From a virus: a DNA stretch of 52,592 nt. The stretch covers positions 1 through 52,592 of the IMG/VR virus record IMGVR_UViG_3300010389_000023; one strand, 5' to 3'. This document shows, one piece after another, positions 1 through 47,502 of the stretch. Each line of letters begins with the position of its first letter. Positions within the stretch are counted from its first letter, which is position 1. The position numbers and the translations under genes were made by a program. Under the pieces are notes generated by a model. It worked only from the letters and a program-made list of their open reading frames with translations, searched no databases and had not been told where the DNA came from.

Positions 1-344
1 ACAAACATAGCATTGTTTGTGACCTTGGTTGGACCTTTCTTTTCCTCATCAAGATCCTTCATCTTCTTATGAAGATCCTGTAGTTTCTCAGTCATGTCTG
101 CAACGTGCTTCATTGCCGCTACAGCGACCTCATATGCTCTCGGGTGTCCACTCTCCTGAGCGACCTCTAAAGCGCCTCTGACCGCCTCCTGACCCTGATC
201 TATGAGGCTGTATAGTTCGCCTCTGGTATATTCATAATCTTTCTGGCGATCGTCATCAGTTTTCTCAACCTTTACTGGTGGTTTTTCTTCCACAGGTTCA
301 GCACTGATATTGAGGATCTCCTCCATGTTCTCTTCTAGGCTCAT
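1..344 (-). CDS. 16: Terminase small subunit gp16 (partial, 3' end outside window)
   Basis: Only the first 114 codons are present; the gene runs off the left edge. The product should be the small terminase subunit, which recognises and regulates cutting of concatemeric DNA and stimulates the large subunit gp17. The visible protein begins with an acidic, flexible stretch (SLEENMEEILNIS, then EEKPP). A helical core follows with DYEYTRGELYSLIDQGQ, an alanine-rich helix ending in HPRAYEVAVAAMKHVADM, and a charged coiled coil with LHKKMKDLDEEKK. The HPRAYEV / LHKKMKDL pattern matches what I recall of T4 gp16 (SPRHMEV / LHKDMKD). The start ATG overlaps the gp15 stop in an ATGA, and the gene order gp13-gp14-gp15-gp16 is that of T4, so the identification is strong. 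An internal ATG eight codons later is a possible alternative start. Confidence 0.9.
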   Translation of the reverse strand, partial: MSLEENMEEILNISAEPVEEKPPVKVEKTDDDRQKDYEYTRGELYSLIDQGQEAVRGALEVAQESGHPRAYEVAVAAMKHVADMTEKLQDLHKKMKDLDEEKKGPTKVTNNAMF

Positions 345-1141
345 AAGAATTCAATTCCTTCATTAAATCCAAAGTCATCATCAGCAGTCAATAGAAGATC
401 ATCTAGACCATCAATATTTCCATCATTATTAATATCTGTTGTTGCTTTGGGTGTATATGTTCTTGTAATAGTTCTGCGACTTACGTTATTATCACCAAGC
501 GTTTCGTGAATAATTGCTTTTTTAATAACGTTTGCGGTGTTGTATGGACCGTAGAGATAAGTTTTTGCAGTGAAACTTAATGTATATGTAATATATCTAC
601 GTTGTAAAAAATCACCGTCCCAAGTATCTTCGTGACTAATGTTATTTAAAACAATAGCAACATCTCTCTTTTCATCCATATCTGGAATCATATTAAGAGT
701 TAGAGAAAATGAAGGTTGAAAATATGGAAGTATTTGTTCAACCATTTGCAAAGCATCATCTTGAGATTTGGCAATAAGTCCTAGTTCAAAACTTATATTA
801 TAAGGAACAGGAACATATTGAACTCTGACTTCATTACCATCATCATCAATGATCGTTTTATATTTTTGAATTGGTGATGTCTTACGAGTAGAATCGTAAT
901 CAAGACCTGTCATTTCAAAATAAAGACGTGGTAGAGTGATTGATACTTTTCTTAGGTCTGGATTTTCTTCTAATCTAACAATAAATTTTTGCTTAGGTCC
1001 GTAAGCAAGTGGAACTTTCTGCTGTTCAATAACCGAACCATCAGAAGGATCTATTCTTTTTATTTCTAAGTTATTAAAAAGAGTACCGAAGGCAATAACT
1101 GTTCTTCTTATTGCTTCGTTATAAAAATGAGAACCTAACAT
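341..1141 (-). CDS. 15: Tail sheath stabiliser / tail completion protein gp15
   Basis: 266 residues, close to the 272 of T4 gp15. In T4 this protein forms a hexameric ring at the head-proximal end of the tail, stabilises the contractile sheath and provides the docking face for the neck. The N-terminal SHFYNEAIRRTVIAFGTLFNN, the LPRLYFEMTGLDYDSTRKT segment, the MVEQILPYFQPSF motif near residue 140 and the KRDVAIVLNN segment all align by eye with T4 gp15 (FYNSSFRRY, EQILPYFQPHF, KRDIKIVL). The C-terminal 60 residues are more variable and end in an acidic tail (DINNDGNIDGLDDLLL), which looks like an EF-hand/dockerin-type calcium loop. The start overlaps the gp14 stop (TAATG) and the stop overlaps the gp16 start, so translation is probably coupled. 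Confidence 0.95.
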   Translation of the reverse strand: MLGSHFYNEAIRRTVIAFGTLFNNLEIKRIDPSDGSVIEQQKVPLAYGPKQKFIVRLEENPDLRKVSITLPRLYFEMTGLDYDSTRKTSPIQKYKTIIDDDGNEVRVQYVPVPYNISFELGLIAKSQDDALQMVEQILPYFQPSFSLTLNMIPDMDEKRDVAIVLNNISHEDTWDGDFLQRRYITYTLSFTAKTYLYGPYNTANVIKKAIIHETLGDNNVSRRTITRTYTPKATTDINNDGNIDGLDDLLLTADDDFGFNEGIEFL

Positions 1142-2089: not shown

Positions 2090-2890
2090 TTATCCGATCA
2101 TGTCCATTGGTGGAATAGCATACTTACTGAGAACTTCGCTTTCTATTTGCTGAATTTCTGCTAGAGCATCTTCATACAATTGTCTTCCATTCATAGTAAT
2201 ACCACCAGGAAGTTGAACATTATTAAACTTGATCATATTCTGTCCCCATTGTCTTTTAATTAAGGAAGTAGCATATCTCTTCAAAAACATATCATTATAC
2301 ATCTCTGTTGCATCACTAGGATCAATAAGACGATGTGCTTCGATCAAAAGATATTTTCCTTCGGAAAGAAAATCGGCATCTACATCAAGATATAAACGAT
2401 CGCGGCGTTGTGTGTATCTAAACTGTTGGAATGATCCATTGTTCAGAACCATATCAAGAGTTTCTAAATATTGTTTAGTCATGAAATAATTTAGAATATC
2501 AAGTGATCCAAAAGCATAGAGATCATTTAGGTATAACTGATATTCAACTCCCCATAAATTTGAGCGGATCGTATTGCTTACTAATCCAAATACTTTACTG
2601 ATGCCAACTACATGATCTGGAATAGGAATATAATTTGTTGCTTCATTCCAAGATGTAGTTCCTTCAGTAGTAGTTACAGTTGCCTTAAATCTTGCAATAT
2701 CATCGGCAGTCAAAGAATGTGTGAGATAGCATCTCTCCATACCGTTATAACAGTTCTCTTGAAAAAATTGAATAGCATCATCAACAAGATCATCAACTTG
2801 ATCTACATCAACATTGATTTCTAATACTGGTGCTCCTAATTTTCTCAGACAATAATCGGTAAACTCTGTCCTAGATGCTGGTTGAGCCAT
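2090..2890 (-). CDS. 13: Neck protein gp13
   Basis: 266 residues (T4 gp13 has 309). In T4 this is the head-completion protein that binds the portal and, with gp14, makes the connector for the tail. The N-terminus ASRTEFTDYCLRKLGAPVLEINVDVDQ followed by QVDDLVDDAIQFFQENCYNGMER is the classic gp13 signature in cyanomyoviruses. The middle (about 85-150) is predicted to be beta-rich with IPIPDHVVGISKVF, and the C-terminal third is helical (RYATSLIKRQWGQNMIKF, then LYEDALAEIQQIESEVL). A CATAAATA late-promoter motif lies about 20 bases upstream at 2912-2919, so this gene probably opens a neck transcription unit of gp13-gp14-gp15-gp16. Confidence 0.95.
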   Translation of the reverse strand: MAQPASRTEFTDYCLRKLGAPVLEINVDVDQVDDLVDDAIQFFQENCYNGMERCYLTHSLTADDIARFKATVTTTEGTTSWNEATNYIPIPDHVVGISKVFGLVSNTIRSNLWGVEYQLYLNDLYAFGSLDILNYFMTKQYLETLDMVLNNGSFQQFRYTQRRDRLYLDVDADFLSEGKYLLIEAHRLIDPSDATEMYNDMFLKRYATSLIKRQWGQNMIKFNNVQLPGGITMNGRQLYEDALAEIQQIESEVLSKYAIPPMDMIG

Positions 2891-3178: not shown

Positions 3179-5683
3179 TTATGCTGGATTTAATGCGATA
3201 GTATATGCTTTCCAAGCATCGTCTCCTGGTGTAGTAAATGCACCAGGATTCTCAGCACCTGCAGTTGATTGGAGTAAGTAAGCAGTCATAATTGTCGCAC
3301 CAGAACCATTATTTGCGCCAGTATCTTCAGTAGGTCCAAGAGTATAACCAGAAGGTGCTGTTGTACCACTTGCGGAGTCATCATCGTCCAAGAATCCCAC
3401 ACTTACAATCATACATCCATCGGTTGTTGTAGTAATGGATGGAGAATTTGGATCTCCGCTGCCTGCAGTGGCTTCTTGAGTTGTTGTATTAAATACGGTT
3501 GTTGTATTTACATTTCTAAACGCCATCATTACATACACTGCGCCAGAGTTTGGATCCGTTAGGTTATTAGCACTTACTGAAGTTCCTGAAGATACGATAT
3601 AGTAGAAGGAGCTATCTGGAACATTATCGTTATCTGGTTGAGCGCCAGTATTATTAGTAGTTCCTTCGCTCCATCCAGTAGGATCAGCTCCCATATTACC
3701 CGAGTCAGTAGCACCAAAAAGAAGAACAACATCACCAGACTGTATGCCTGTTAATGTCATTGTTCCACCAGACTGTGATGTAGTTCCTGTTACATATTCT
3801 ATACCTGATGCGGTTTCAGTTGATAATCCTGCTTGAGATAGTCCGAGAGCAACTGCCTTTGCGTTATAAATTTGTCCGATTTCGGAATGACTGAGTTCTC
3901 TGTTATAAATCAAAACCTTCGCAACTTGACCATCTACATAACCTTCTTCTCCAGCATTAGCACGACCTATGGCAACATTTGTTGACGTTGTAGTATTAAT
4001 GGTTTGAGTTCCAGTATTATAATTCACAAGTTTTTCTGCATTGTGATATAGAGTTATACCTTCAAGATCATTATTTGCTCCTGTACCAATAGTAATGGTA
4101 TTTGTTCCTGTAGTTCCTGATGCTCCTTCTGTGTTTGTATCTGATATTGAGATACTGGAAGAACCACCAGAACTTCCACTATCACCATCTCCACTTCCTC
4201 CGTCTCCACCAGAACCAACGGTTACTGTGTATTGTTGCCCAGCAGATACTGTCCAGCTTCCGTAAGCAAGAGCACCGCCGCCACCGCCACCGCCACCTTC
4301 ATCATCCTTATCGGGGTCATTATCACCACCACCGCCACCACCACCGACTACAACAGCAGAAACAGATGTTACGCCAGAAGGAACTGTGAACGTTCCACTA
4401 GAAGTAAATGTTTGTTGATTTGATATTCCATCTGCTGCATTTGATGGGTACGAATAACTACCCCAAACAAATCTCACAACACCATTTCCACCATCACCAC
4501 CAGAACCAAAACCACCGTCTCCTTCAACGCCGCCACCGCCGCCGCCATAGTTACCACCATCGCCGCCAGTACCATTGGTATTTTGTCCATCAACACCACC
4601 AGAACCGCCACCTCTTGGAGCAGTTCCACTAGAACCAGCTCCATATATTCCTACACCACCACCACCATCACCATCATTAGAACCACCAGCACCACCGCCA
4701 CCAGAACCATTTTGGTTTTCTCCACCACCATTACCAGTATATCCACCAGCTCCAGCGCCACCGCCACCGTCTTCATTTCCACTGCCGCCAGAACCACCAG
4801 ATCCTCCATTAGTCCTCGATAATCCACCAGAAGACCCACCATTACCACCACCACCGCCGCCACCGCTTCCGCCGCCACCGCCTCCAGCAGTTAAGTGGTT
4901 ATTGGTGAAGGTTAAAGTTGTGCCAGATATAGTAGTTGTAAGGTTGTTTGATAGGGTAATAGTTCCTGAAGAGCTATTAAACGCCGTAACTGTTGTGTTG
5001 TTAGGAACTCCTGTTCCAGTGACTACAGTTCCTACCTCAATAAAATCAAAAATGGCATCAGGCGTTCCACCACCCGAACTACCTGGCCAGGTAGCTGAAA
5101 TCATATTCCAACCATTTACTGTGAGAGTTTTTGTTGCTAGTTGAGCACCACCAGCAACTCCCATATTAAACTGATTAGAAGTATTGAGTTCCATTGCCCA
5201 TTTACCACCACTAGTGGCAGGGTCTCCCCAAGTAAGAAGTCTTTGTTGACTTGTAATAGTATTAGAGTCTAGTTTAAAAAATATAATAGATGTTCTTGCT
5301 GTTGTGCCAGTGACTCCATTGTATCCAGACAGGTTTACATAGTCATCAACGCCATCAAATACTAACTTACCAAAGTCACCAGAATTATAAGATGCTCCAT
5401 TTGTAAGTGTTCCGTTTCTATCAAAAGTTCCTATATCTTCAACTCCACCTGTACCAGTGTTACTCTCTGATATTTGTCCATCCCAATGAAGTTGAAGTCC
5501 ACTTGCTGGGACACCATCTGTACCATAAAAATTTGAAAAACTTATGGCACCACTTGTTGGAGCATTATCCTGACCATAATATTCACCAAGTTCCAGTGGA
5601 CCTGCTGTAGTTGGAGCAGTATCTCCACTGAACTCTTGGTGAATAGCTGATAGTGATATTGATCCTGAAGCAGGTAGTGTCAT
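3179..5683 (-). CDS. Glycine-rich LamG-like adhesin / tail tip protein with nested domains
   Basis: 834 residues, probably a receptor-binding or fibre-tip protein. Residues 1-54 hold two repeats of the short virion-attachment motif (ASGSISLSAIHQEF..., SGAISFSNFYG). Residues about 60-203 look like the first half of a concanavalin A/LamG jelly roll (LQLHWDG, KLVFDGVDDYVNL, WNMISATWPG). Residues 204-270 are a beta module (VVTGTGVPNNTTVTAF...TISGTTLTF). Residues 266-535 are glycine-rich, with runs of up to seven glycines and the tip signature VVRFVWG near 402. Residues 536-615 then continue the LamG fold (LEGITLYHN, VDGQVAKVLIYNRELSHSEI). Residues 620-834 form a separate beta-sandwich-like domain ending in WKAYTIALNPA. 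The glycine-rich part recalls the polyglycine-II adhesin domain of T-even gp38. The order of its two halves is unusual (see findings). Receptor binding is inferred. Confidence 0.85.
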   Translation of the reverse strand: MTLPASGSISLSAIHQEFSGDTAPTTAGPLELGEYYGQDNAPTSGAISFSNFYGTDGVPASGLQLHWDGQISESNTGTGGVEDIGTFDRNGTLTNGASYNSGDFGKLVFDGVDDYVNLSGYNGVTGTTARTSIIFFKLDSNTITSQQRLLTWGDPATSGGKWAMELNTSNQFNMGVAGGAQLATKTLTVNGWNMISATWPGSSGGGTPDAIFDFIEVGTVVTGTGVPNNTTVTAFNSSSGTITLSNNLTTTISGTTLTFTNNHLTAGGGGGGSGGGGGGGNGGSSGGLSRTNGGSGGSGGSGNEDGGGGAGAGGYTGNGGGENQNGSGGGGAGGSNDGDGGGGVGIYGAGSSGTAPRGGGSGGVDGQNTNGTGGDGGNYGGGGGGVEGDGGFGSGGDGGNGVVRFVWGSYSYPSNAADGISNQQTFTSSGTFTVPSGVTSVSAVVVGGGGGGGDNDPDKDDEGGGGGGGGALAYGSWTVSAGQQYTVTVGSGGDGGSGDGDSGSSGGSSSISISDTNTEGASGTTGTNTITIGTGANNDLEGITLYHNAEKLVNYNTGTQTINTTTSTNVAIGRANAGEEGYVDGQVAKVLIYNRELSHSEIGQIYNAKAVALGLSQAGLSTETASGIEYVTGTTSQSGGTMTLTGIQSGDVVLLFGATDSGNMGADPTGWSEGTTNNTGAQPDNDNVPDSSFYYIVSSGTSVSANNLTDPNSGAVYVMMAFRNVNTTTVFNTTTQEATAGSGDPNSPSITTTTDGCMIVSVGFLDDDDSASGTTAPSGYTLGPTEDTGANNGSGATIMTAYLLQSTAGAENPGAFTTPGDDAWKAYTIALNPA
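5079..5094. repeat. 16-bp perfect palindrome inside adhesin gene at a domain junction
   Basis: CTACCTGGCCAGGTAG is perfectly self-complementary and encodes the ATWPGS part of the adhesin. This is the point where the first half of the LamG-like fold stops and inserted material begins. Confidence 0.6.
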
Positions 5684-46950: not shown

Positions 46951-47502
46951 TTAAAGTAAAAAATTATAATTGCAAACTATTCTAATATTAGATTTTTCTG
47001 GACATGATGATGCATGATATGTTTCTCCTGGAAATAAAACACAACGACCTCTCTTTGGTGAAATAGAATTTATAATAGTTAAATCATCAAAAAAAGTTGT
47101 TGGACCATCACTATCATTTACATAATATAACATCGTGTAATGCGAATAATACTGATCGATGTGTGGTGTGTGAGATCTACCATTGTTCTGGTTTTTTATA
47201 AACATCCCAAGACGCACTCTTTTTAAGACAGATACTTTCTTATCATATGCATCTTTTACTGCTTTGTATAATATGGGTATTAATGCAGCAAGTGCTTGCT
47301 TTTCCTTGTAATTTTTTTCGAACTTAGATGAATATGCATCTGAATAAAGAAGATTTGCAAATCCGCTATTTGCATCCCCCAATCCCCCACCAGTGCTAAT
47401 GCCTGGTGTATAATGCCATGGAAAATTATTTTTAAAAATATCTTCTACTGATTGTTGAATAAATTCTGGAATAGAATTATCTAGTACAATAATATTACTC
47501 AT
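46951..47502 (-). CDS. 2OG-Fe(II) oxygenase (prolyl-4-hydroxylase-like)
   Basis: 183 residues with the double-stranded beta-helix signature of 2-oxoglutarate/Fe(II) dioxygenases. The iron ligands are H114 and D116 (in THTPHIDQYY, spaced HxD) and the distal H163 (in GETYHASSC). R174 (SNIRIVCNY) is the expected 2-oxoglutarate carboxylate binder. The middle SHYTMLYYVNDSDGPTTFFD and PKRGRCVLFPG segments match the family. Such enzymes hydroxylate proteins, nucleic acids or small molecules. In cyanophages they are common near structural genes, and their substrates are unknown. The ATG overlaps the stop of the 169-residue gene (ATGA), so the two are translationally coupled. It is intact and has all key residues, so it is probably active. 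Confidence 0.92.
   Translation of the reverse strand: MSNIIVLDNSIPEFIQQSVEDIFKNNFPWHYTPGISTGGGLGDANSGFANLLYSDAYSSKFEKNYKEKQALAALIPILYKAVKDAYDKKVSVLKRVRLGMFIKNQNNGRSHTPHIDQYYSHYTMLYYVNDSDGPTTFFDDLTIINSISPKRGRCVLFPGETYHASSCPEKSNIRIVCNYNFLL

Follow-up and report, generated by a model that had tools for sequence, protein, structure and literature searches.

A predicted tail-tip adhesin with a circularly permuted glycine-rich cassette in a LamG loop, from a virus related to T4-like cyanophages

We describe a family of virus proteins in which a LamG lectin-like domain is broken at one loop by an insert whose glycine-rich halves stand in the reverse of their usual order. P0001, the member examined here, lies on a 52.6-kb fragment of an uncultured marine virus (IMG/VR record IMGVR_UViG_3300010389_000023; 52,592 nucleotides, analysed at full length and referred to below as ‘the window’), and its frame runs without interruption from ATG to stop over 834 codons, as an earlier note made from the letters alone had stated. 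The same layout (Table 1), in open frames, is found on 12 further contigs from 10 other metagenome data sets which, together with the window, make up six lineages (identity to P0001 59-75% across the full length). Taking the explanation as a whole, we consider it probable that P0001 is a tail-tip adhesin of a T4-like phage, whose LamG loop carries a permuted glycine-rich cassette that originated by duplication, serves in receptor binding and is subject to exchange.

Table 1. Features of the P0001 locus, in window coordinates
Feature	Residues	Position	Strand	Evidence
Whole adhesin gene, P0001, 834 aa		3179..5683	minus	open frame; same-layout homologues on 12 contigs
N-terminal domain	1-57	5513..5683	minus	78-96% identity to window within the permuted family
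LamG N-half	62-203	5075..5500	minus	joined-half Pfam match; LamG HMM positions 1-138
bC, beta module main part	211-261	4901..5053	minus	HMM of unsplit modules; first strand lacking here
GC, C-half of glycine-rich domain	262-408	4460..4900	minus	GC HMM 2-168/170, 137 bits
GC-GN linker SYPSNAADGISNQQ	409-424	4412..4459	minus	form as between tandem domains in L190/L199
GN, N-half of glycine-rich domain	425-513	4145..4411	minus	GN HMM 1-91/92, 110 bits; PF21722 positions 1-114
bN, probable first beta-module strand	514-535	4079..4144	minus	missing-strand window test
LamG C-half	536-617	3833..4078	minus	LamG HMM positions 135-210; joined-half Pfam match
Exchangeable C-terminal domain	618-834	3182..3832	minus	differs in build or is unrelated in most relatives
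Giant tail fibre, 3755 aa, upstream of P0001		5966..17233	minus	Pfam; Peptidase_S74 chaperone domain at 3660-3713
gp13-like head-tail connector gene, downstream		2090..2890	minus	PHROG 211, E 4e-45

The interrupted LamG domain and the beta module

The limits that the earlier note gave for a LamG fold split in two hold in a joined-half Pfam match (about residues 62-203, then about 536-617). With the insert (about residues 204-535, some 330-340 residues) removed in silico, the protein matches Laminin_G_3 (PF13385) at E 5.4e-15, scoring 56.3 bits where the cut-off is 27.6, over profile positions 1-150 of 151, while the whole native chain gives no PF13385 match at E<=1; a six-frame search recovers profile positions 60-150 only, at 26.9 bits, or 27.9 bits with neighbours in frame, which is barely above the cut-off. 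Annotation that relies on domain order all but overlooks this LamG, and such proteins are therefore probably under-counted. Searched with an HMM built from the two halves joined, the virus loci retrieved gave matches in 214 open frames, among which a break at model position 135-138 was found only in the permuted family; 92 LamG domains of other virus loci run unbroken through this point and are contiguous over Laminin_G_3, whereas the native chain of P0001 is not.

The insertion point falls after WNMISATWPG and before NDLEGITLYHN. In the nearest unsplit LamG relatives, L096 and L090, the loop is empty (AASAPASGTANDIKLYING in L096), and at the same loop the permuted family reads SATWPGSS[insert]GTGANNDLEGITLYHN. 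When MAFFT aligned six members of the family and 40 ordinary LamGs without supervision, just 4 of about 7,700 residues fell in the insert. At the level of sequence, the LamG domain of P0001 is interrupted by the insert.

A second split, missed by the earlier note, probably affects the beta module that opens the insert, with its first strand (bN) displaced to the insert end. Matches to an HMM of unsplit beta modules start at model position 24-27 in four of the six lineages, the window included, and the upstream strand of type TSGSNAVTAL, present in the unsplit modules of other virus proteins, is absent from bC. With each 18-residue segment of the protein put in turn in place of the missing strand, TNTEGASGTTGTNTITIG (or its equivalent), located at the insert end, came out best in five of the six lineages and third in L008. 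Since the gain from bN is small, about 5-11 bits, we treat the split of the module as a lead with moderate support. Alternatively, bC might be a complete small domain and bN a mere strand of GN or LamG, which is possible, if somewhat doubtful; bC scores 57-70 bits by itself, the residues immediately before it also lengthen the match somewhat in L006 and L080, and the modest gain and the third rank in L008 fit this reading too, whereas the lack of a TSGSNAVTAL-type strand in bC and the best fit of bN in the other lineages speak for a split module.

Glycine-rich halves in reversed order

In the L001 reading of the window frame, where residue numbers are a few lower than in P0001, half-domain HMMs built from four ordinary-order proteins of other viruses locate GC at about residues 261-412 and GN at about 420-513. 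This bears out the reversed order, GC before GN, that the earlier note had described, and the usual order that it had given holds as well: of the 37 other virus proteins in which both halves occur, 32 have the order GN-GC, four are tandem (GN-GC-GN-GC) and one is nested (GN-GC-GN-[GN-GC]-GC), with GC-GN in none, while GC-GN is present in all six lineages of the permuted family.

The junction between the halves bears on how this order arose. In the GC-GN linker, the C-flank typical of one glycine-rich domain is followed by the N-flank typical of the next; among the family linkers (YPATSVADSGTNQSVFTT in L004, YPSNAADGISNQQTFTS in L107), that of L107 matches the linker between tandem domains in L199, FPSNAAENTNQQIFTT. 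This resemblance points to permutation by duplication, as also explains the permuted inserted domain of swaposin (PMC3320104), and from it we infer that the outer halves of two tandem glycine-rich domains were lost, the direction of the change being read from the rarity of GC-GN and not from a rooted tree. Tandem arrays do occur in related proteins (L093, L190, L199 and L278) and Pam3 gp24 is a trimer (PMC9608196), such that GC and GN might instead be remnants of two neighbouring tandem domains, each completed between trimer subunits by domain swapping rather than within the chain; we think this unlikely, as the linker equals an inter-domain linker and the halves can therefore also meet in one chain.

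Restoring the ordinary order strengthens the match. Recut to GN-GC, the window insert rises from 138 to 263 bits as one full-length match, against up to 207 bits for shuffled controls, and over the six lineages the recut inserts give one continuous match (profile 1-261) at 257-323 bits, compared with 138-198 bits for the best native match and maxima of 205-215 bits when GN is joined to a shuffled GC. The recut scores exceed those with shuffled GC, and the reversed-order signal is thus not due to glycine content. Native P0001 does match Gly_rich_2 (PF21722), at 33.3 bits against a curated cut-off of 24.3, without keeping the N-to-C order of the profile; the recut sequence covers positions 1-225 of 226. 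Two unrelated glycine-rich stretches, each independent, could by chance resemble swapped halves without forming a folded permuted domain, and the low-complexity composition, the lack of any Pfam match for GC alone and a structure prediction of low confidence would sit well with this; we nevertheless regard it as quite improbable, given a position-specific GC match far above that of shuffled GC of the same composition, and a canonical terminal motif in GC (VRFVWG..YPS) joined by a tandem-type linker to the canonical start of GN (NQQTFTSSGTFTVP).

The earlier note had left the choice between a real permuted nested adhesin and an assembly artefact, and it is the former that the sequences support. 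That a repeat-induced misassembly joined parts from different glycine-rich genes is scarcely credible: glycine-rich repeats are prone to such errors and the sequence comes from a virus contig fragment, but we take misassembly to be excluded because the 12 further contigs, spread over six divergent lineages, keep the layout, the open frame and the tail-gene neighbours, and no other gene in the window has both glycine-rich halves in a motif scan. Homologues in the same contiguous order, which the earlier note would have taken as the mark of an ordinary family, do exist; the family that they form is a conserved permuted one. The glycine-rich permutation is real and conserved as far as sequence goes, a rearrangement kept across lineages rather than a product of assembly. 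We did not find the permuted family in the phage isolate collection, and a tblastn search of phage isolates with the glycine-rich and beta parts gave no match, probably through the low-complexity filter.

Other arrangements were met in passing. The L008 phage has an ordinary-order copy in another, very large protein (L105, a 2789-aa frame, about residues 1640-1940), where it comes after a long PGPKPSPGPKP linker. In L094, a 2805-aa frame, residues 452-1420 hold a glycine-rich domain apparently nested in another, the insertion lying at the same GN/GC boundary, adjoining GIQGVQG collagen-like repeats.

Divergence, exchange and structure prediction

The segments of these proteins diverge unevenly, as judged from pairwise comparisons rather than a formal recombination test. 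Identity at non-glycine positions is 24-40% in GC for most lineage pairs and 48-76% in GN for the same pairs. Between L008 and L080 DNA identity is 87-100% up to codon ~160, 53-87%, mostly below 80%, from there to codon ~513, and 85-100% beyond it; between the window and L002 it is 75-100%, mostly above 90%, to codon ~580 and then about 72%, and the C-terminal domains of the two are unrelated. (With few changes between the window and L002 to go on, their dN/dS is left out of the evidence.) Such patterns suggest that the cassette is exchangeable and that its GC half changes fast. L080 (6393-9512) also has repeats of the type SYFGYFGGG...VDRIDYSNDTATASPKGPLS in its C-terminal part, between LamG and the last domain.

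An AlphaFold model from the six family rows (model 1) reached pLDDT 41 and pTM 0.37; with 40 LamG rows added (model 2) these rose to 67 and 0.52. Model 2 is good for the beta module and GN and poor in much of GC, and its first ~50 LamG residues have pLDDT below 50. We used 40 contiguous LamG rows because MAFFT misplaced both the mixed alignments with separate GN, GC and LamG fragments and a set of 60 LamG rows. Foldseek found no PDB match to the model at E<=0.001 (best E 0.0025); the top-ranking structures are jelly rolls of lectin type, among them the lectin-like subdomains of clostridial neurotoxins, a likeness of the predicted model that reflects the shared concanavalin-like fold and says nothing about toxicity. 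Against virus LamG proteins model 2 gave E down to 4e-7. The alignments that span both LamG halves have rmsd of 14-34 Å, so that model 2 does not show the halves packed as one fold.

Tail setting, known relatives and predicted function

Tail-tip proteins are believed to determine much of the host range of marine cyanophage-like viruses, and the majority of these proteins lack annotation. The gene for P0001 belongs, by its sequence relationships, to a T4-like, cyanophage-related virus, the best matches of gp8 being Synechococcus T4-like phages (62-64% identity); photosystem genes (PF00124), sought as a hint of the host, were absent within the fragments searched. In T2-type phages the gene for a gp38-type tip adhesin adjoins the fibre gene, downstream of it, and here the giant S74 fibre gene lies directly upstream of the adhesin gene in all homologous loci examined. 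On the other side, the gp13-like gene leads a gp13-gp14-gp15 block, also found downstream of the adhesin in L006 and L007 (where the contig reaches). On account of gene position, domain content and the variable GC half, we predict tail-tip adhesin to be the likeliest function of P0001, with attachment probably through its N-terminal domain.

A close comparison is with the ordinary glycine-rich tip domain of marine viruses (PF21722), which stands alone or, as in L088 (3081-5258), L090 (4641-6554) and L096 (3977-5782), in the first LamG loop. The latter three proteins share with P0001 the same halves, the same flank motifs and the combination with LamG; L088 also adjoins a giant fibre gene, and the gene next to its LamG protein carries the C-terminal domain of P0001 (44% identity). 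Unlike P0001, these proteins have the GN-GC order, use the first LamG loop rather than the one after WNMISAT, and have no beta module that we could see. The ordinary glycine-rich profile has one sequence match in the PDB, a weak one to the Pam3 tail fibre (7YFW/7YPX; E 0.03, with biased composition).

In gp24 of the myocyanophage Pam3, a TNF-like sandwich bears extended glycine loops with a variable tip, for which a part in receptor recognition has been proposed (PMC9608196), although this protein is not permuted, does not sit in a LamG and is a trimeric fibre with a helical N-terminus. The T2-type gp38 adhesin works like the Pam3 tip, and gp38 of S16, PP01 and T2 is likewise a separate tip protein of a T4-like fibre with glycine-rich motifs and hypervariable loops (PMC12892980); it differs from P0001 in having a beta-helix platform instead of LamG and in not being permuted, and no gp38 was among the PDB sequence matches at E<=1. 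By analogy with Pam3 gp24 and S16/PP01 gp38, the glycine-rich domain of P0001 probably binds receptors. Swaposin, the permuted saposin of plant aspartic proteinases, is alike in placing a circularly permuted domain inside another domain, but is unrelated in its helical fold and its function (PMC3320104). Our literature search found no paper on circularly permuted phage adhesin domains; the matches look like papers on permuted genomes.

Synthesising these findings, we suggest that the LamG domain may be the platform of a tail-tip adhesin, arranged as LamG-N [bC [GC-GN] bN] LamG-C with the cassette carried in a LamG loop. The two pieces of the split beta module would close the base of the insert, and GC and GN would, like Pam3 gp24, form a single beta-sandwich bearing extended glycine loops; the loop tips, mostly in GC, would bind the host receptor, and exchange of the cassette and of the C-terminal domain by recombination would then change the receptor range. 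More tentatively, and with less than even confidence, we speculate that the permutation is doubly nested, in that a [GN-b-GC] unit was cut inside its beta module and the rotated cassette placed in the lectin loop, to be swapped between viruses as a unit; if so, the LamG loop would be a ‘socket’ for exchangeable receptor-binding tips. The permuted family suggests that a putative glycine-rich receptor-binding domain tolerates being circularly permuted and being placed inside a lectin loop, the ordinary, tandem, nested and permuted forms would represent natural intermediates for permutation by duplication, and exchange of the cassette may track receptor switching.

Two further genes of the window deserve mention. 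The gp15-like tail sheath stabiliser (341-1141, minus strand) ends in a dockerin-like, calcium-loop-like stretch, DINNDGNIDGLDDLLLTADD, which matches Dockerin_1 in Pfam at E 0.004, under the cut-off. A 183-aa protein (46951-47502, minus strand), with HTPHIDQ...TFFDD...GRCVLFPGETYHAS, resembles by eye a 2-oxoglutarate/iron oxygenase and is a putative member of that class.
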